From: Bacteroidales bacterium
Lineage (GTDB): Bacteria; Bacteroidota; Bacteroidia; Bacteroidales; UBA932
Direction of reading: 5' to 3'
Length of the DNA: 38,041 nucleotides
NCBI GenBank assembly: GCA_024689985.1
Contig: JAILCZ010000005.1
Location: 1-38,041 of the forward strand
Shown here: positions 1-9,348 of the stretch, piece by piece
How positions within the stretch are numbered: the stretch's first letter is position 1
Layout: every line of letters begins with the position of its first letter
The notes under the pieces: model-generated
The model's database searches: none
What the model saw: the letters and a program-made list of their open reading frames with translations, nothing else
What the model was told of the DNA's origin: nothing
Translations under genes and position numbers: made by a program

Positions 1-539
1 CGGAGGAGAAACTCCTTCCACCACAGGTCAGAGACCTGCCTTACCTGCTCATCATTATGGGCGCGGAGGATAAGGTTGTTCTCCATAAGTCCATAATTAT
101 ATGGGAAACCCTCCTGGCGGAGGAAACACTTCTGACGGTACGCCTCACGGAAACCGATTCTCTCATAAGAATAGACGACGGGGATCTCCTGATAGATGCA
201 GTTTCTCTCGAAATGAGGAACCTGGGCAATAAGGACGCCCTCCCCTATCCTCTGGTCGATTATATCATAGAAGGCACGGCCGGTAATCGTAATGTTGGCA
301 TCCATCCATACGCTATAGTCATAGTCACGCAGGACCTTGTGAGGCTGGAGCTTAACATAACGGGACAGACGGACGCTGTCATCATCCTCATAGCCTATGG
401 GCCTGATCTCCCATACGCCGTCACGGGACGGCTTGGAATCGTTGGTGAAGCAGATGTAGTCGAAACTCTCATCCACGACTTCAGGCTGCCTCAGGCGGTC
501 ATAACCATTGACTATGCAGGTATATATTACTTTTTTCAT
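1..539 (-). CDS. Glycosyltransferase, DUF616/TOD1-MUCI70-like (partial, runs off window start)
   Basis: Manual minus-strand translation from ATG at 539: MKKVIYTCIVNGYDRLRQPEVVDESFDYICFTNDSKPSRDGVWEIRPI...SVWMDANITITGRAFYDIIDQRIGEGVLIAQVPHFERNCIYQEI; open to the window edge. Overlaps the preceding stop by ATGA (536-539). Not in the ORF track, probably because it has no stop inside the window. Confidence 0.8.
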   Translation of the reverse strand, partial: MKKVIYTCIVNGYDRLRQPEVVDESFDYICFTNDSKPSRDGVWEIRPIGYEDDDSVRLSRYVKLQPHKVLRDYDYSVWMDANITITGRAFYDIIDQRIGEGVLIAQVPHFERNCIYQEIPVVYSYERIGFREAYRQKCFLRQEGFPYNYGLMENNLILRAHNDEQVRQVSDLWWKEFLL

Positions 540-1435
540 TTCTTGGACAATATGCACTGGCGTCCCAGCTCTTCAAGATAATCCTGGGTAAAGAAATCCA
601 TCTTGCCGGCAAGCGAGGCGAAAGTCATCTCGCCGAAATAAACCTTTCCGGCAATCTCATAGAAGTCAACGCGGACCTCAGGGAAACCCTTTGAAAGGGC
701 CGAAGCCGCTTCAAGCATCTTTTCAAGGCCCTTCGGACGCGGAACGGCCCCCTTGCCGTCACGATAGTGGTCGGTAAAGACGGAATACTCAGGATGGACA
801 TTCCAGTCAAAGTCATAGGAGTTGACATAGGTTCCTTCCTTCGTCCTGCTGTAGCAGACCCATACTCCGTAAGGCTTGCCGTCGAAGCACCAGAACTTAT
901 AGTCGACTATCGAGCTCGTAAACGGCTGCTCTTCCGGCTCAAGGAACTCCTCGGCGATGATGCAAGGCTTGATGCGGTTGTAATACATCTCCCCGTTCAT
1001 ATAGCCGAACCTGGTCTTGAGATGGCTGGCGAGGTCCTTTCGGATAGCTTCTGCATCGAAGCCCTTTGACTTGTCCACGATGTGGAAGGAGCCGCTGTCG
1101 TGGTTGCATTTGATGACGAACTTCTCAGGAAGAAGGTCAAAGTCAATCTCCTCCGCCGTTTCCCAGGCTCCGAGAAGAGGGATGAGCAAATCTCCGAATC
1201 CCTTTTCCTTCACATAATCCCTCACCCTGTATTTGTCAGAGCAGAGAGACCATTTGGAAGTGTCTCCGAAACACATCAGCCACTGTATCTTTTCATTGAT
1301 GTCGCGTGGATTCTCCCAATCAATGGGATAACCCTTCCAATAAAGCCATTCCTTTTCCACCACTCTTTTGTGGCAGAAGTCAAGCATACGCCTGCGGCAC
1401 CAATTTCTTATCTTGCTTTTAAGACTCATTTTCAA
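536..1435 (-). CDS. TupA-like ATP-grasp protein (polysaccharide biosynthesis)
   Basis: ORF 299 aa; WENPRDINEKIQWL..., KFVIKCNHDSGSFHIVDK, AEEFLEPEEQPFTSSIVDYKFWCFDGKP pattern of the TupA-like ATP-grasp family. Confidence 0.8.
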   Translation of the reverse strand: MKMSLKSKIRNWCRRRMLDFCHKRVVEKEWLYWKGYPIDWENPRDINEKIQWLMCFGDTSKWSLCSDKYRVRDYVKEKGFGDLLIPLLGAWETAEEIDFDLLPEKFVIKCNHDSGSFHIVDKSKGFDAEAIRKDLASHLKTRFGYMNGEMYYNRIKPCIIAEEFLEPEEQPFTSSIVDYKFWCFDGKPYGVWVCYSRTKEGTYVNSYDFDWNVHPEYSVFTDHYRDGKGAVPRPKGLEKMLEAASALSKGFPEVRVDFYEIAGKVYFGEMTFASLAGKMDFFTQDYLEELGRQCILSKK

Positions 1436-1449
1436 TCTCTAACTCTATT

Positions 1450-2988
1450 TTACTTTAAATGAATTTTATCAAGCTTGGACCTGACAAAATTCTTCTCCCC
1501 GTCGCTCAGGCCGAAGAAATACGTGGAAGCCAGGATGGCAAAAGTGCTGGCGGAAGCCACGGCAACCATACGCCAGATTCCAGGATCCATAATCTTCCAG
1601 ACGGCAAATCCGGCACCGAGACCGAAGACGGTCACTGGAAGGACCTTCCAGAGCACTTCCTTGAAATACATCCTGATCGGGAAGCCCGTAACCTTGCTGA
1701 TTATGAGGAGCTTCACCACATTGCACAGGGCATAGACGCCGATGAACACATAGAAGAATGAATGTGCCGGGAAGCCGGCCTTGTACAGGATGAACGTAAT
1801 AGGGAATATGAGGAAGGTAACCGAAGAAACAACGATGTAGAAATTCCTGATGTTTCCGTTAGCCTGTATCAATGTCGAGAATGAAGTCAGAAGAAGGTCC
1901 ATCAATGCGCAGACAAGAGCCAGCTTCGTGAATATCGCAGTCCCATCAGGAGCCTCAGGTCCAAGCCAGAGACCAAGAATGGTCTCAGCCTCGAAGAGGA
2001 AAGGCACGAAGAAGAGGAATATGATAAGATAAGCATACTTGGAGCCCTTGCAAGCAAGGTCAAATGCATAGGACCTGTCTCCTGAAGAATACGACTTGGT
2101 AATCTGAGGATTCAGCGCCAGGAGAACATTCGTAACAAACTGCCTTACAGCCATTTCCACATTCAGCGAAAGGCCTCTCATAGTGTTGTATATGACACCG
2201 AAGACCAGGTTGATCAGCTGGGTGATACCCTGGGTGTTTAGCATATAGACTCCGAAGGAAAGACCGTTCCAGCCGGCGAAGCTGAACATCTTTCCGAAAT
2301 AAGCCTTGTCGAATGATACTCCCGTACGGCTTTCAGGGCAGTATTTCCTGCAATAGATGGCATAGAGGATCCTGATGAAAAGGGCAACTGCCATCATCAG
2401 GAAACCATAGAGCAGGAGCCTGTCAAAAGGAGACTTGAGAAGGGCGAGAGCGATCAGAAGCTTGAAAACTCCCTCCACGACACCTATCACGGCAAACGCA
2501 CCCATCTTCTCACGGGTGATTATGGCCGCGTTGTAAGGCACGCTGAGAAGGTTGATGATGAATGAGACCAGGGAGAACTGGAAGAGAATCTGGGCGACGC
2601 CCGTCCTGCCCTCCGGAAGATTCATCACATTGCCGACATACCAAGGACCGACAATCTCTCCAAGAATTAGGATGACTGCCGAAACCAGGAGCATAATGCC
2701 GTTGGCAGTGGCGAACACCCTCTTCTGACTCTGCAGGTCTCCCCTTCCGATCTCGACAGCCATAAAGCGGCTGACGGCTGTCGAAAGGGAGCTGGTAATA
2801 ATGGCCATCATCGAAACGAAGCTGGCCACAGCCTCATATACGCCTCTGTCGGAAGCGCCGAGGGCATTGAGCACCACCCTCGCAGTATAGAGGCCGATGA
2901 CCATAAGAAGGAACATACGGAAGTATAGCGCAAGAGTGTTCCGCGCAATCCTTCTGCTGTTTTCCGATATCGTAGATGGTCCGGCCAT
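1450..2988 (-). CDS. Polysaccharide flippase/oligosaccharide translocase (Wzx/MATE-like)
   Basis: ORF ~512 aa, many TM segments, N-terminal RRIARNTLALYFRMFLLMVIGLYTARVVLNALGASDRGVYEAV. ATG at 2988 is more likely than the TTG at 2994. Confidence 0.88.
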   Translation of the reverse strand: MAGPSTISENSRRIARNTLALYFRMFLLMVIGLYTARVVLNALGASDRGVYEAVASFVSMMAIITSSLSTAVSRFMAVEIGRGDLQSQKRVFATANGIMLLVSAVILILGEIVGPWYVGNVMNLPEGRTGVAQILFQFSLVSFIINLLSVPYNAAIITREKMGAFAVIGVVEGVFKLLIALALLKSPFDRLLLYGFLMMAVALFIRILYAIYCRKYCPESRTGVSFDKAYFGKMFSFAGWNGLSFGVYMLNTQGITQLINLVFGVIYNTMRGLSLNVEMAVRQFVTNVLLALNPQITKSYSSGDRSYAFDLACKGSKYAYLIIFLFFVPFLFEAETILGLWLGPEAPDGTAIFTKLALVCALMDLLLTSFSTLIQANGNIRNFYIVVSSVTFLIFPITFILYKAGFPAHSFFYVFIGVYALCNVVKLLIISKVTGFPIRMYFKEVLWKVLPVTVFGLGAGFAVWKIMDPGIWRMVAVASASTFAILASTYFFGLSDGEKNFVRSKLDKIHLK

Positions 2989-2996
2989 TGGCAATC

Positions 2997-4307
2997 TTAC
3001 TTGTTTCTGTCCTCGTTGAAGGCCTTGAGACGCTCCTCGAGAATAGGATAGTCCTCCTCCTTCATATTGCTGGTACAGATTCTGAGGCCCTTCTCCTGGC
3101 TTCCGGAATTGGCAAGGTTCACACAGCTTACCCCGTAATACATCAGCTGGGCAATGAGCTCAGCACCGGAAAGGTCCTCATATCCGACCGTGAAGAAGAA
3201 ACCGTCACCGATAGGATCCTTTACGTCGTGACTATAGACGATGTGGAACCCGTTGTCGGTAAAGATCTTCTTGAGTCTCTCCGCACGACGGCCGTATTCC
3301 TTCATATCGGTTACAAAGTTAATCTTTCCTTCAACACTTGCATCAAGCATTGCGGCATAAGCCCACTGAGTAGCGTTGGACGTACCGCAGGTATTGTTCT
3401 CCACGACATAGTCTATGAAGGTAGGACCATAGGCACCGCTGTTTCCATAACGCTGAGCAAGAGCCGGATACTTCCTTCCATAAAGCTTGTCGCTGATGCA
3501 GACGAGACCGATTCGGCCTCCTGCGTAGCTGAATATCTTGCTGGCGCTGGTCATCACGATGCAGTTTGAAGTGTAGTTCGCGATGCTCGGAGCGAACGGA
3601 GCCTTGAAAGGATGGCTCAGGTCGCGGCGGAAATCCATACAGAAATAAGCCTGGTCCTCGAGGACGATGGCGTCGTACTTGTCGGCAAGTTCGGCGACAA
3701 TCTTCAGCTCGCTGTCTTCCAGACAGATCCAGGCCGGATTGTTAGGGTTGCTGTATGCGATTGCGGCTATGTCTCCGTGGGCGAGTTCCTGCTCAAGAGC
3801 CTGTCTGAGCTTGGGACCTCGGAAAGAGAAGATATCGAACTCCCGCCACTGAACTCCGAGCATTCGGCACTGGGCCTGCTGCAGAGGGAAGCAAGGGTCG
3901 ATGAAGAGTATCTTGTTCTTCTTGGCATCAATCTGAGCAAGAAGAAGGATCGTCATAAAAGAGCCTCCTACGGTTCCGGAAACAGGAATCACAGATTCCG
4001 GTTTGAAATCCACGTTCAGGAAGGCTTTGATGAAACGGCTGCCGGCCTCCTTGAGCTCAGGAAGACCTGCGCTTGATGGGTATTTGCCGGGGACGCCCCT
4101 CTTGAGGGCTTCGATTTCCGCATTGAGGCCGATGACATTGGCCGGTAATCCAGGATCACCCTGTTCAAGATGAATGAACGGGATGTCAGTAGCTTTTTCA
4201 ATCTTCTGGGCAAGTCCCAGCATCTGACCAATGCTTGCAGATGCCAAATCGCTTATATGGGCCTCGCCCATATGCTTTCGTACTAAATCTTCTGGATATA
4301 CTTTCAT
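2997..4307 (-). CDS. PLP-dependent aminotransferase class I/II
   Basis: ORF 436 aa; AIAYSNPNNPAWICLEDSEL, VLEDQAYFCMDFR, MTSASKIFSYAGGRIGL (PLP-lysine motif). Confidence 0.88.
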   Translation of the reverse strand: MKVYPEDLVRKHMGEAHISDLASASIGQMLGLAQKIEKATDIPFIHLEQGDPGLPANVIGLNAEIEALKRGVPGKYPSSAGLPELKEAGSRFIKAFLNVDFKPESVIPVSGTVGGSFMTILLLAQIDAKKNKILFIDPCFPLQQAQCRMLGVQWREFDIFSFRGPKLRQALEQELAHGDIAAIAYSNPNNPAWICLEDSELKIVAELADKYDAIVLEDQAYFCMDFRRDLSHPFKAPFAPSIANYTSNCIVMTSASKIFSYAGGRIGLVCISDKLYGRKYPALAQRYGNSGAYGPTFIDYVVENNTCGTSNATQWAYAAMLDASVEGKINFVTDMKEYGRRAERLKKIFTDNGFHIVYSHDVKDPIGDGFFFTVGYEDLSGAELIAQLMYYGVSCVNLANSGSQEKGLRICTSNMKEEDYPILEERLKAFNEDRNK

Positions 4308-4327
4308 CGGATGATTATTTATTTAAT

Positions 4328-4335
4328 CAAAGATA
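4328..4335 (-). promoter_or_regulatory. Candidate Bacteroidota -7 element TATCTTTG upstream of the aminotransferase
   Basis: Minus strand TATCTTTG matches TAnnTTTG; no clear -33 TTTG at the usual distance. Confidence 0.4.
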
Positions 4336-4352
4336 CGAAAAAAATAGTCTCT

Positions 4353-5081
4353 TTATGAGAAAATGGCCACAAGACCTGAAATGCCTATATAGGCATAGAC
4401 CACCTTTCTGAGCACCTTGAGCGGCATTCTCCTATAGACCATATTGCCGAGCCACAGGCCGATGAACACGGCGATGACAGCATAGATCCAGGCGACGCAT
4501 ACCGCGTGGGTCACGAAGCCCTGGTTGAACCTGAAGATGGTCATAGCGAAATTGCCGATGAGGAAGTAGGTCTGGGCCATTGCGGCGTATTCGTCCTTGG
4601 AGTCCGTGCTGGACATAAAATAAAGGACAGCTGGAGGGCCCTGCATTGCAAAGAAACCGCCCATAAGGCCGGAAGCCGTACCCATTGCCACCTGGACCGG
4701 AAGCGTCGGCTTCAGGCGGATTCTCTCGCTGAAGCGGAAGAAGTAAATGCTGACGAGGATCAGGATGACGCCGAGGATATGGCGCAGGACGTGGCTGTCC
4801 ACCCTGGCGACGACCCCGACCGCGAAGAAGGAGACGACAATGAAGGTCAGCAGAATCGGCAGCAGCTTCTTCCACGGGATGAACTTCCAGTAGAACATCG
4901 TGAGATAAAGAGAGTTCACCATCGCGAGCAGGCCTGAAAGAGTGGTCGCCTCGGCATAGGAAGGCATTATGTACGGCAGAGCCGTCATAATGAAGATGCC
5001 GAATCCGAAGCCCGTGACTCTCTGTACGAAACTTGCTCCGGTACAGAAAAGAACCAGAATCAATATGGCCTCAACGCTCAT
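4353..5081 (-). CDS. Sulfite exporter TauE/SafE family membrane protein
   Basis: ORF 242 aa, multiple TM; GASFVQRVTGFGFGIFIMTALPYIMP and ASGLMGGFFAMQGPPAVLYFM motifs. Confidence 0.88.
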   Translation of the reverse strand: MSVEAILILVLFCTGASFVQRVTGFGFGIFIMTALPYIMPSYAEATTLSGLLAMVNSLYLTMFYWKFIPWKKLLPILLTFIVVSFFAVGVVARVDSHVLRHILGVILILVSIYFFRFSERIRLKPTLPVQVAMGTASGLMGGFFAMQGPPAVLYFMSSTDSKDEYAAMAQTYFLIGNFAMTIFRFNQGFVTHAVCVAWIYAVIAVFIGLWLGNMVYRRMPLKVLRKVVYAYIGISGLVAIFS

Positions 5082-5630
5082 CTACTGTATTCTTTGAAGC
5101 CTGTAACCAAGGCCGAAAAGCCCGATTGCAGAACCAACCCTGCGCATTACTTCGACTCCGCGGACGAAGACGTGGAAGGCATCCACGCTTCCCGGTTCAA
5201 CATTGTCATAGCGGATAAGCGAAATGGCCTCATCCGCACAGCGGCGCAGTATCGTTGTCATCTTATTGGCCTCGGGGCTGCCGAGGGCGAAGCCGAGCAC
5301 CTTCTCAGTTATGAAATCATCCATATCGTCGAAGCCTCTCGGACCATAGAAATCAGTGTATTTGAGCATCTTGCCCTGCTCCCAGTCGACATCCCACATC
5401 TTGGCAAGTCCGAGGCCGACATATCCGGCCCAGGCAAACGCCACCTCGGGATAGGAACTGTACTCCGAAACGGCATCGGCAAGATAAGCCTTTATCCATT
5501 CGTGCCACTTGGAATCCAAGTCTTCGGAAGAAAGAATCTGTCCGGCAAGAAGACCTTCCTCCGTACATATTTTAACGAGAACAGCCTCGAGGCGGTCCTC
5601 GAAGCTGTCATACATTTCAGTCTTTTCCAT
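5082..5630 (-). CDS. Conserved hypothetical protein
   Basis: ORF starting MEKTEMYDSFEDRLEAVL; ATG at 5630 preferred over the TTG at 5651. Stop directly abuts the TauE ATG. Confidence 0.7.
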   Translation of the reverse strand: MEKTEMYDSFEDRLEAVLVKICTEEGLLAGQILSSEDLDSKWHEWIKAYLADAVSEYSSYPEVAFAWAGYVGLGLAKMWDVDWEQGKMLKYTDFYGPRGFDDMDDFITEKVLGFALGSPEANKMTTILRRCADEAISLIRYDNVEPGSVDAFHVFVRGVEVMRRVGSAIGLFGLGYRLQRIQ

Positions 5631-5658
5631 TGAACCGCTTTTACGGTGCAAAGATACA

Positions 5659-6729
5659 CTATTTCAGGTAGAAGTCTTTGTACCAGATGGCGAATTTGCG
5701 GAGACCGTCACGGAGACTGGTGGAAGGCTTGAAGCCGAAATCCCTTTCCAGAGGGGTCGTATCTGCGTATGTGACAGGCACATCGCCCGGCTGCATCGGC
5801 ACGAGTTCCTTATGGGCATCGAAATCGTAGTCAGCAGGAAGGACACCCGCGGAAATGAGCTCTTCCTGAAGGATATTCACGAAATCAAGAAGGTTCTCAG
5901 GACTGCTGTTGCCGATGTTATAGACCTTGTAAGGCGGCACCGGAAGGCCGTCCTCACCCTTCGCACGCTCAGGTGCCTTCGCCATAACGCGGAGCACACC
6001 CTCAACGATGTCGTCCACATAGGTAAAGTCCCTCCTGCAATTGCCATAATTGAAGATCTTTATCGTCCCGCCCTTGATGAGCTTGTCCGTAAATCCGAAA
6101 TAAGCCATATCAGGACGGCCGGCAGGTCCATAGACGGTGAAGAAACGAAGTCCGGTCGAAGGGATGTCGTAGAGCTTGCTATAGGCGTGGGCCATAAGTT
6201 CGTTGCTCTTCTTGGTCGCGGCATATAGGCTGACAGGATTGTCCACCTTGTCGTCAGTGCTGTACGGCACCTTCTTGTTGGAACCATAGACGCTGGAAGA
6301 CGAAGCATAAACCAGATGTTCTACTCCCCTGCGGCCTTCCGAATAGCTGTTGCGGCAAGCCTCAAGAATATTGTAGAAACCGATGAGATTGCTCTGGATA
6401 TAGGCATCAGGATTGGTGATGCTGTAGCGTACGCCGGCCTGTGCGGCCAGATTCACCACGATATCCGGCTGATATTCTGAGAAGATGGTATCAATCGTAC
6501 CCTTGTCGGCAATGTCTCCCTTGATGAAGAAGAAGCGGTCGCGGGAAATCTTGGCGATTTCACCGAGGCGCCAGTCCTTGATGCTCACATCATAGTAATC
6601 GTTCATATTGTCTATGCCGACCACCTTGATCTCCCCGTTATCGGAGAGGAGCCGGAGTACGAGATTGGCCCCGATGAAGCCTGCCGCACCGGTCACGAAT
6701 ACCGTCTTGTTCTCAAATACACCCATCAC
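5659..6729 (-). CDS. NAD-dependent epimerase, UDP-glucuronate 4-epimerase-like
   Basis: ORF 356 aa; VTGAAGFIGANLVLRLL, NLAAQAGVRYSITNPDAYIQSNLIGFYNILEACR, YAATKKSNELMAHAYSKLYDIPSTGLRFFTVYGPAGRPDMA. ATG at 6726 or GTG at 6729. Confidence 0.9.
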   Translation of the reverse strand: MMGVFENKTVFVTGAAGFIGANLVLRLLSDNGEIKVVGIDNMNDYYDVSIKDWRLGEIAKISRDRFFFIKGDIADKGTIDTIFSEYQPDIVVNLAAQAGVRYSITNPDAYIQSNLIGFYNILEACRNSYSEGRRGVEHLVYASSSSVYGSNKKVPYSTDDKVDNPVSLYAATKKSNELMAHAYSKLYDIPSTGLRFFTVYGPAGRPDMAYFGFTDKLIKGGTIKIFNYGNCRRDFTYVDDIVEGVLRVMAKAPERAKGEDGLPVPPYKVYNIGNSSPENLLDFVNILQEELISAGVLPADYDFDAHKELVPMQPGDVPVTYADTTPLERDFGFKPSTSLRDGLRKFAIWYKDFYLK

Positions 6730-8001
6730 TTAGTCTCTCTTGAAAATATCTCTTGTATATACCTTGTCCTGAACGTCGTCCAGAACTGAGTCATAGCGGT
6801 TTGCAATGATTGCGTCGCTTCTCTTCTTGAACTGGGCAAGGTCATTCACGACCTCGCTGCCAAAGAATGAAGAACCGTCCTCTATGGTAGGTTCATAGAT
6901 GATGACCTTTGCACCCTTAGCCTTGACACGCTTCATAATGCCCTGGATGGAACTCTGACGGAAGTTGTCCGAATTGCTCTTCATCGTGAGACGGAAGACG
7001 CCGATGGTGACATCCTTCTCCTTTGCCTGGTCATAGACGCTGTTGGCGCTGTAATAGCCGGCCTTCTCAAGCACGCGGTCCGCGATGAAGTCCTTGCGGG
7101 TCTTGTTGGAATCCACGATTGCCGTGATCATATTCTGAGGCACGTTGGCGTAATTCGCGAGCAGCTGCTTGGTGTCCTTAGGAAGGCAGTATCCGCCGTA
7201 GCCGAAGCTAGGATTGTTGTACTGGGTTCCAATGCGAGGATCGAGGCAGACGCCGTCGATGATATCCTCGGTATTGAGGCCCTTCATCTCCGCATAGGTA
7301 TCGAGCTCGTTGAAATAGCTGACACGGAGGGCGAGGTATGTGTTGGCGAAGAGCTTCACGGCCTCAGCCTCCGTCGTACCCATAAAGAGGACAGGGGTAT
7401 CCTGCTTGATCGCGCCTTCCTTGATTATGGATGCGAATGTATGGGCCGCCTCCTCAAGCTTCGCATTGCCCTTGTCGTAACCCACGATGATTCTTGAAGG
7501 ATAGAGATTGTCGTAGAGAGCCTTTGACTCACGGAGGAATTCAGGGGCGAAAATGATGTTCGGCACGATCACCTTCATAGTACCGTCAGCCTGGCGCTCG
7601 CGGTAAGCGAACTTCTGGCGCACGGACTCGGTATATCCCACAGGGATGGTTGACTTGATCACCATCACGGCATCAGGATTGACCTCAAGCACAAGTTCGA
7701 TCACTTCCTCAACGTGGGAGGTATCGAAATAATTCTGCTTGCTGTCATAGTTCGTAGGAGCTGCGATTACGACGAAATCAGCGTCAGCATAAGCCTTGCG
7801 GCCGTCGAGGGTCGCTTCGAGGTCGAGATTCTTTTCCGCAAGATATTTCTCTATATATTCGTCCTGAACAGGAGAAATCTTCTTGTTGAGCTTCTCCACC
7901 TTCTCAGGAATGACATCTACCGCAGTCACCTTATGATGCTGCGAAAGAAGTGTCGCTATTGACAGGCCGACATAGCCCGTACCTGCTACTGCAATTTTCA
8001 T
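6730..8001 (-). CDS. ugd: UDP-glucose 6-dehydrogenase
   Basis: ORF 423 aa; [61 protein letters not shown]. Confidence 0.93.
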
Positions 8002-8019: not shown

Positions 8020-9348
8020 TTAATCAATAAATCTGGCCCCGTCATCCGGTCGGCAGAAGAACACCTTGAACGTTCCCTCATATTCAGGGAATTTCTCCAG
8101 ATACCTCCTGGTCAGTTCCTCCCTTATGCTTTCCTCACAGGCCGGATCCACGAGAGCGATGCAGGCTCCCTTGAAACCGGCGCCGCTGAAACGGCCTCCA
8201 TAGACGCCTTTGAGCGTCTTCATAATATCGTATATGGCGATAAGCTCAGGAGATCCACACTCATAGTTGTGGATGGAGCTCTCGCAACTTTCAAAACTGA
8301 GATTCCCGAAAAGGTCAAGATTACCCGACTCCCAGGCCGTCACACCCTTGCGGACACGCTTGAATTCCGTATAGAAATGCTCGGCGCGACGTGAGAATCT
8401 TTCCGGCAGCCTGTCCCTCGTGGACTCGAACATCTTGTAAGGGACATCCCTGAGAAATGTCTTGTCAAGTGATTTCAACGGCTGGCCGGAGAAGGCAAGC
8501 ATATCCCAGGCAGCCGTCCTGCACTCGCTGACGCGGAGATTGTAGTCACTTCCGGCAAGACTGCGGACAAGGCCGCTGTAAAAAATTCCCAGGCTGAAAT
8601 CCTTCATTCCCTCAGGTGTGCGGATAAGCCTGTATTCTTCAGAATCAGTATCGACGAAAAGGAGGGCATTCTTTTCACCCAGGACTATGCAGGCCTGGTC
8701 GAGGATGCCGTTGTCAAGACCGATGTACTCCCTTTCCGCCTGGGAAGCAGTCTTGATCACCTCCATCTTGGTAAGGGTGATTGAATTCGCCTTGGCAAAA
8801 GCCATCACATAGGCTACGAGGACGGCTGCGCTGGCACTGAGTCCACCTATCGGAAGGGAGCCCTGCACCCTGCCGCGGATGCCCTTCTTCAGGACGAACT
8901 TCTTCCTGAGGGCGAAAGATGCGCCCCTTGCGTAGTCACCCCAGTCGCCTCCCCTTACGGAAGTAGGATGTTTCACATTGAATTCCACCCGACCCTCATA
9001 GGCGCTGCTTTCAAGGCACACAGAACCGTCATCAGTAGGTTCGAACCAGAGATCCACACCCTTGTCGATGGCGAATCCGGTCACAATGCCGTGCTGATGG
9101 TCCACGTGGGCACCTATAGGGCAGACTCTATAAGGAGAGAAAATGTGATATTGAGAAGAAGTCCTGGAGACAGGCTCAGGAAGGGACACACCGAGGACAT
9201 TCTCCAACTTCGGTCTGAGAGAAGCAGGAACGGAACGCCTTCCCTTTATCATCTCGCTCAGATGCGAAGGCTGAAGCCCAAGCATTGCCGCAAGTTCTTT
9301 CTGGGAAAGGCCTTTAGCCTTCAGAGCTCCTTTGAGTGTGGTTTCCAT
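8020..9348 (-). CDS. XRE-family HTH domain fused to a GHMP sugar kinase (galacturonate-kinase-like motifs)
   Basis: ORF 442 aa. N-terminus LKGALKAKGLSQKELAAMLGLQPSHLSEMIKGRRSVPASLRPKLENVL is an XRE HTH. The rest is a GHMP kinase: YRVCPIGAHVDHQHG, LPIGGLSASAAV, GGRFSGAGFKGACIALVD. Confidence 0.88.
   Translation of the reverse strand: METTLKGALKAKGLSQKELAAMLGLQPSHLSEMIKGRRSVPASLRPKLENVLGVSLPEPVSRTSSQYHIFSPYRVCPIGAHVDHQHGIVTGFAIDKGVDLWFEPTDDGSVCLESSAYEGRVEFNVKHPTSVRGGDWGDYARGASFALRKKFVLKKGIRGRVQGSLPIGGLSASAAVLVAYVMAFAKANSITLTKMEVIKTASQAEREYIGLDNGILDQACIVLGEKNALLFVDTDSEEYRLIRTPEGMKDFSLGIFYSGLVRSLAGSDYNLRVSECRTAAWDMLAFSGQPLKSLDKTFLRDVPYKMFESTRDRLPERFSRRAEHFYTEFKRVRKGVTAWESGNLDLFGNLSFESCESSIHNYECGSPELIAIYDIMKTLKGVYGGRFSGAGFKGACIALVDPACEESIREELTRRYLEKFPEYEGTFKVFFCRPDDGARFID

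Follow-up and report, generated by a model that had tools for sequence, protein, structure and literature searches.

The window analyzed here, a stretch of 38,041 nucleotides from a Bacteroidales bacterium, carries on its minus strand a gene (8020..9348) in which a DNA-binding domain and a sugar kinase are joined in a single frame of 442 codons, with an ATG at 9348, a stop at 8020 and no internal stops. Residues 1-58 (9175..9348, minus strand) form an XRE/HTH_3 DNA-binding domain (Pfam HTH_3 at residues 6-58, 7.7e-10, 39.1 bits vs a gathering score of 23), followed by a short disordered linker (residues 59-66, 9151..9174, minus strand) and a GHMP kinase domain (residues 67-442, 8023..9150, minus strand) of the galacturonic acid kinase (GalAK) type. 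The kinase part contains GalKase_gal_bdg (67-98), GHMP_kinases_N (140-224, 4.7e-13) and GHMP_kinases_C (340-416), and the N and C domains score above their gathering thresholds. The AlphaFold (AF2) model of the 442-aa fusion is confident (mean pLDDT 91) except in the linker (pLDDT <50 at residues 59-63), and Foldseek superposes the kinase domain on archaeal and human galactokinase, with P. furiosus galactokinase 1s4e as the best match (TM 0.92 on target). The kinase thus belongs to the GHMP superfamily, and its fold is intact in the predicted structure.

The next gene downstream encodes a UDP-glucose 6-dehydrogenase (ugd; 6730..8001, minus strand; NCBIfam UDP-glucose 6-dehydrogenase, 2e-165) and is followed by a UDP-glucuronate 4-epimerase-like gene (gae; 5659..6729, minus strand; Pfam Epimerase, 4.8e-55), whose substrate is suggested by the context. 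Upstream lies a GT4 glycosyltransferase gene of an exopolysaccharide (EPS) cluster (9397..10494, minus strand), identified by Pfam and sequence. The order Wzz, Wzy, three glycosyltransferases, HTH-kinase, ugd and gae is common to the window and to locus L077 of the uncultured Bacteroidia RUG14102, another species, whose fusion protein is 86% identical over 442 residues (78% at the nucleotide level) and also matches HTH_3 (33.4 bits). Uronate isomerase (UxaC) was searched for and not found in the genomes of the window (G000) and of L077 (G790), so the usual catabolic route for free uronates may be missing in both. At positions 536-5651 of the window the EPS cluster also includes genes for a TauE/SafE permease and an aminotransferase, together with a MatE-type flippase-like and a TupA-like ATP-grasp gene, and its product is perhaps an amino-modified polymer.

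The HTH-kinase fusion is a genuine single gene; the initial annotation had described an N-terminal XRE HTH and a full GHMP kinase in one ORF, which the frame, the Pfam matches and the L077 orthologue confirm. The source genomes are metagenome assemblies, in which a fusion could be produced by faulty assembly or annotation, or the gene could be in decay, but this explanation deserves virtually no credence: L077, in an independent assembly at 78% nucleotide identity, has the same fusion and synteny, which rules out a chimeric or frameshift origin, and selection against change appears strong. Between the two species the HTH shows pN 0.17 and pS 0.75, and the kinase domain has a dN/dS of 0.067, with dS near saturation; by these substitution patterns, both halves of the fusion are under purifying selection.

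The architecture is rare, the HTH being present in 2 of about 230 homologues inspected, those of the window and L077. On how frequent the fusion is in Bacteroidota, the survey thus yielded a second case and no phylum-wide architecture. An HTH encoded as a separate neighbouring gene was not found in the homologous loci, weak HTH matches in L086 and L141 lying several kb off, and the long open frames at L036, L056, L057 and L059, considered as other N-terminal fusions, are apparently read-through of non-coding frame.

The kinase was examined for its relationship to galactokinase (GalK). NCBIfam galactokinase models match it (best 7e-65) but all below their cut-offs (219 vs 443 bits for PRK03817; 182 vs 227 for TIGR00131), which places it in the superfamily and in no curated GalK equivalog. 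Where GalK has the motif GRxNxIGEHTDY with its sugar-contacting Glu, the window reads YRVCPIGAHVDH, with Ala80 (9109..9111, minus strand), the equivalent of GalAK Ala41, in place of the Glu. At this position alignment A2 has Ala in all 42 GalAK-like sequences and Glu in all 7 Bacteroidales GalK, and the GalAK-like sequences have His84 where GalK has Tyr. The motif YRVCPIGAHVDHQHG, which the initial annotation had quoted together with the Glu to Ala change, stands as given.

The plant reference was a 424-residue sequence which we take to be that of Arabidopsis GalAK; its Ala 41, Tyr 250 and Ala 368 fit the positions of the GalAK mutants reportedly described by Yang and co-workers in 2009 (A41, Y250, A368; A41E is said to kill activity and Y250F to admit GlcA), and this self-consistency, not a database result, is its warrant. 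This presumed GalAK shares 41% identity with the kinase of the window, vs 25-27% for Bacteroidales GalK, and in the tree the clade joins it apart from Bacteroidales GalK (SH-aLRT 100). The specificity residues A41, Y250 and A368, in the presumed plant numbering, correspond to A80, Y269 and A390 of the window protein. Alignment, tree and pocket residues support a GalAK-type uronate kinase and not a galactokinase, as had been proposed, and the affinity to plant GalAK is a strong lead. The plant enzyme (At3g10700; Yang et al. 2009, cited in PMC8636097) and the window kinase have in common PYRxCPxGAHxDHQ, NYECG, GxRFSGAGFxG, the Ala replacing the GalK Glu and the pocket Tyr; in contrast, plant GalAK has no HTH and is partnered by a promiscuous UDP-sugar pyrophosphorylase, the bacterial clade is known from sequence, and GLSASA (see below) occurs only in the fused pair. 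The position of Tyr269 is occupied by Phe in 8 of the 40 non-fused GalAK-like sequences of alignment A2, perhaps a sign that GlcA has replaced GalA as the substrate. One unfused kinase (L057:6661-7782; G167 C12), close to that of the window, carries eight changes at otherwise invariant sites, including L170I in motif II and Y269F, the equivalent of the Y250F change that reportedly admits GlcA; no nucleotidyltransferase, ugd or gae was found near it, and it is perhaps a specificity variant or a decaying copy.

Homologues of the kinase occur in 140 of 400 genomes of the genus, where they split by identity into a close group A (61-72%), to which the L057 kinase belongs, and a far group B (44-49%), and in 8 others among the 393 searched from the order. 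When 84,980 species genomes were scanned with patterns derived from the kinase, and so for kinases of this family only, 177 relatives were confirmed, the best 80 of which come chiefly from rumen and gut Prevotellaceae and other Bacteroidales. A sugar-1-phosphate nucleotidyltransferase (Pfam NTP_transferase) lies within 1 kb of the kinase on the same strand in 75 of 100 homologous loci, a UDP-GlcA 4-epimerase-like gene occurs in 76 of the 100, and ugd is also found in about a quarter, within 4 kb. Since these are the expected neighbours for uronate salvage, the unfused kinase, the nucleotidyltransferase and ugd/gae probably constitute a salvage module for GalA or GlcA (the substrate being deduced from this setting) that would feed UDP-uronate pools. 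Plants salvage uronates by GalAK and UDP-sugar pyrophosphorylase (PMC8636097; PMC5609113). In fish a glucuronokinase is fused to a bacterial-type nucleotidyltransferase (PMC3938481); the zebrafish enzyme resembles the non-fused loci in coupling a GHMP uronate kinase to such a partner, but differs from the fused pair, where the partner is absent, and is GlcA-specific and without an HTH (PMC3938481). A 3.2-kb contig of a Lachnospiraceae genome (L118, JAFTVQ010000140.1) with a Bacteroidales-type kinase (70%) is likely mis-binned.

In the tree the fused pair is nested inside group A, and its sister is the unfused kinase of L021, which has an adjacent nucleotidyltransferase. The window cluster has no adjacent sugar-1-phosphate nucleotidyltransferase, and a search of both fused genomes did not find the partner, while a control genome gave a match. 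These results suggest that the nucleotidyltransferase was lost in the fused lineage; they are only suggestive because both genomes are incomplete metagenome-assembled genomes (MAGs), that of the window 83.8% complete, and loss in assembly could also explain the absence.

Five replacements at sites that vary little or not at all in group A (F117Y, K144S, S172A, F257Y and T261V) are found in both fused proteins and only there, whereas the median number of such replacements over 108 group-A sequences is 0 and most members have none. The GHMP motif II follows the pattern Gly-Leu-[GS]-Ser-Ser-[GSA]; in both fused proteins it reads GLSASA, the first Ser of the pair being replaced by Ala172 (8833..8835, minus strand), where all 119 non-fused homologues have Ser. 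The kinase had been called intact-looking, which holds for its domains and fold but not for this loop, GLSASA instead of GLSSSA, so that nearly intact-looking describes it better. Asp217 (8698..8700, minus strand), the equivalent of the GalK catalytic base and invariant in alignment A2, is retained, as are Arg74 (9127-9129, minus strand; alignment A2) and Ser173. Given these three residues, catalysis may persist. In mevalonate kinase the Ser of motif II that is retained here matters more than its neighbour, and by this reasoning activity may be weakened rather than lost.

These residues bear on whether the protein still works as a trigger enzyme, phosphorylating GalA (or GlcA) usefully while the HTH adds autoregulation as in the bifunctional PutA or NadR, with GalA-1-P taken over by a general UDP-sugar pyrophosphorylase. 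Retention of Arg74, Asp217 and Ser173, the low dN/dS of the kinase (0.067) and the intact fold of the predicted model are all as such an enzyme would have them; yet a dedicated nucleotidyltransferase was found in neither fused genome, and S172A and the other changes are fixed in the fused copies alone, which makes this reading unlikely, though the strongest of the alternatives.

The DNA upstream of the fusion gene contains three operator-like sites. Site 1, the perfect palindrome GGGAATTCCC (9402..9411), abuts the -33 box within the last codons of the GT4 gene and is the only copy in the genome; site 2, GGGAATTCCA (9381..9390, minus strand), lies between the -33 and -7 boxes, 21 bp from site 1; and site 3, the half site GGGAATT (9353..9359, minus strand), lies between the -7 box and the ATG, 31 bp from site 2, so that the spacings come near to two and three turns of the helix. 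They overlap a Bacteroidetes-type promoter (9371..9401, minus strand) made up of TTTG (9398-9401), 19 nt and TAAATTTG (9371-9378), the same in L077 and in agreement with the consensus TTTG / TAnnTTTG (PMC7366714). The promoter pattern is loose: it is present as well in the upstream DNA of 15 of the 117 non-fused homologues. Three phased GGGAATT(CCC) sites and a promoter are found directly upstream of both fused genes: window and L077 agree at 27/27 site bases and at 10/10 bases of the promoter boxes (TTTG-N19-TAnnTTTG; 37/37 together), but at only 14/25 in the remaining intergenic DNA (Fisher p=0.004, non-coding site bases compared with every other intergenic base). No other 7-mer of the 38-kb window has three non-overlapping copies within 70 bp, and such a triple arose in 26 of 20,000 shuffles of the upstream region (~0.1%). 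The palindrome GGGAATTCCC occurs once per fused genome, always at the fusion gene, which is also the sole location of tandem GGGAATT pairs in both genomes.

The array was found upstream of none of the 117 non-fused homologues, which rules out that such sites generally accompany this kinase family, other triples there being mostly short tandem repeats; a similar cluster at L123 is overlapping, distant and unrelated. The placement of the sites, abutting the -33 box, between the boxes and before the ATG, is that expected for a repressor, and they are regarded as putative operators, conserved and overlapping the promoter of the gene itself, as in an autoregulator. They weigh against an ordinary kinase that tolerates an N-terminal graft, in which the HTH would be non-specific or serve protein contacts and the GGGAATT sites would belong to another regulator. 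The graft is rare and its HTH diverges faster than the kinase (dN 0.19 vs 0.096), both of which would fit this reading; but the array occurs only where the fusion does, the recognition-helix region LGLQPSHLSEMIKGRRSVPA has the same letters in the window protein and L077, and pN in the HTH is far below pS, so that a mere graft is improbable.

The reading preferred here, with a probability of roughly 0.6, is that the protein is a one-component autoregulatory transcription factor derived from a uronate kinase, which would repress kinase, ugd and gae through sites at its own promoter. The XRE head would bind as dimers to GGGAATTCCC-type sites overlapping the promoter and so repress the genes for HTH-kinase, Ugd and Gae, the last two of which would supply UDP-GlcA and UDP-GalA for exopolysaccharide. 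The kinase domain would act as the sensor, its GalAK-type pocket accommodating a uronate or its 1-phosphate, in the presence or absence of ATP, and closure of the domains would shift the head on or off the DNA. The ancestor would have been a salvage enzyme that worked with a nucleotidyltransferase; in this lineage that partner would have been lost, the head gained and the catalytic loop changed. An equally simple logic would be feedback, in which GalA or GalA-1-P would signal that UDP-GalA is being turned over in excess and would switch off its production. What can be read from the sequence is the fusion, the kinase family, the conserved sites, the lack of the partner gene from the assemblies and the fused-only substitutions; DNA binding, and repression rather than activation, are what we infer from these, and galacturonic acid or its 1-phosphate is the favoured ligand. 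The initial idea of a one-component metabolic sensor gains support from the operator-like sites, the apparent partner loss and the fused-only changes in or near the active site. Against an autorepressor stand the position of the promoter inside a longer EPS operon, in which control might be weakened by read-through, and the fact that just two fused genomes, both incomplete MAGs, are at hand. The wider proposal, held somewhat short of even odds, is a new class of one-component regulators in which a GHMP uronate kinase, its salvage role given up with the lost partner and altered catalytic loop, became a sensor that gauges uronate or uronate-1-phosphate and controls the UDP-uronate supply for the capsule via own-promoter operators, with enzymatic ancestors and switch in one genus.

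Sugar kinase folds have been joined to DNA-binding domains before, as in the ROK repressors (NagC, Mlc), which like this fusion combine an HTH with a sugar-kinase-derived domain but have a hexokinase/actin fold and a winged HTH, neither of them related to GHMP or XRE. BzdR consists of an XRE HTH and a shikimate kinase-like domain (PMC3602430) and is the closest working precedent for the mechanism: it likewise has an XRE head, a linker and a kinase-fold effector domain and represses a promoter of the pathway sensed (PMC3602430), whereas its effector domain is a shikimate kinase P-loop fold and its pathway benzoate degradation, instead of a GHMP kinase with a site at its own gene inside an EPS operon. 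In yeast, Gal3 has GLSSAF, lacking two residues of the GLSSSA phosphate-loop motif (PMC7614384). Gal3/Gal1 and the fusion are alike in using a GHMP sugar kinase as sensor with a change in that motif; Gal3, in contrast, has no DNA-binding domain, works through Gal80 and shows a two-residue deletion rather than a substitution. No HTH-GHMP regulator was found in a literature search beyond which most subscription papers lay, and the fusion is best read as a new fold in the tradition of BzdR and Gal3.

In two rumen-type bacteria a metabolic enzyme has apparently been caught while turning into a gene regulator, a conversion otherwise known mostly by inference from ancient events or by laboratory reconstruction (BzdR). 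Dozens of unfused relatives, a sister lineage, two fused species and a putative operator array that appears with the head make the order of steps and their effects testable. The loci also point to an uncharacterised bacterial family of uronate-salvage kinases with a nucleotidyltransferase in capsule loci of rumen and gut Bacteroidales.

The closest relatives of the HTH in the genus (L168-L172) are proteins of about 365 aa that consist of an XRE head and, after it, a domain bearing an HExxH-like motif. No GGGAATT was found upstream of three of them (L168, L169 and L171), and these paralogues thus do not corroborate the operator. Their recognition helix is nearly identical to that of the fusion (MQPSHLSEIIKGKRSI in L172), and proteins of this type are a possible source of the grafted head.
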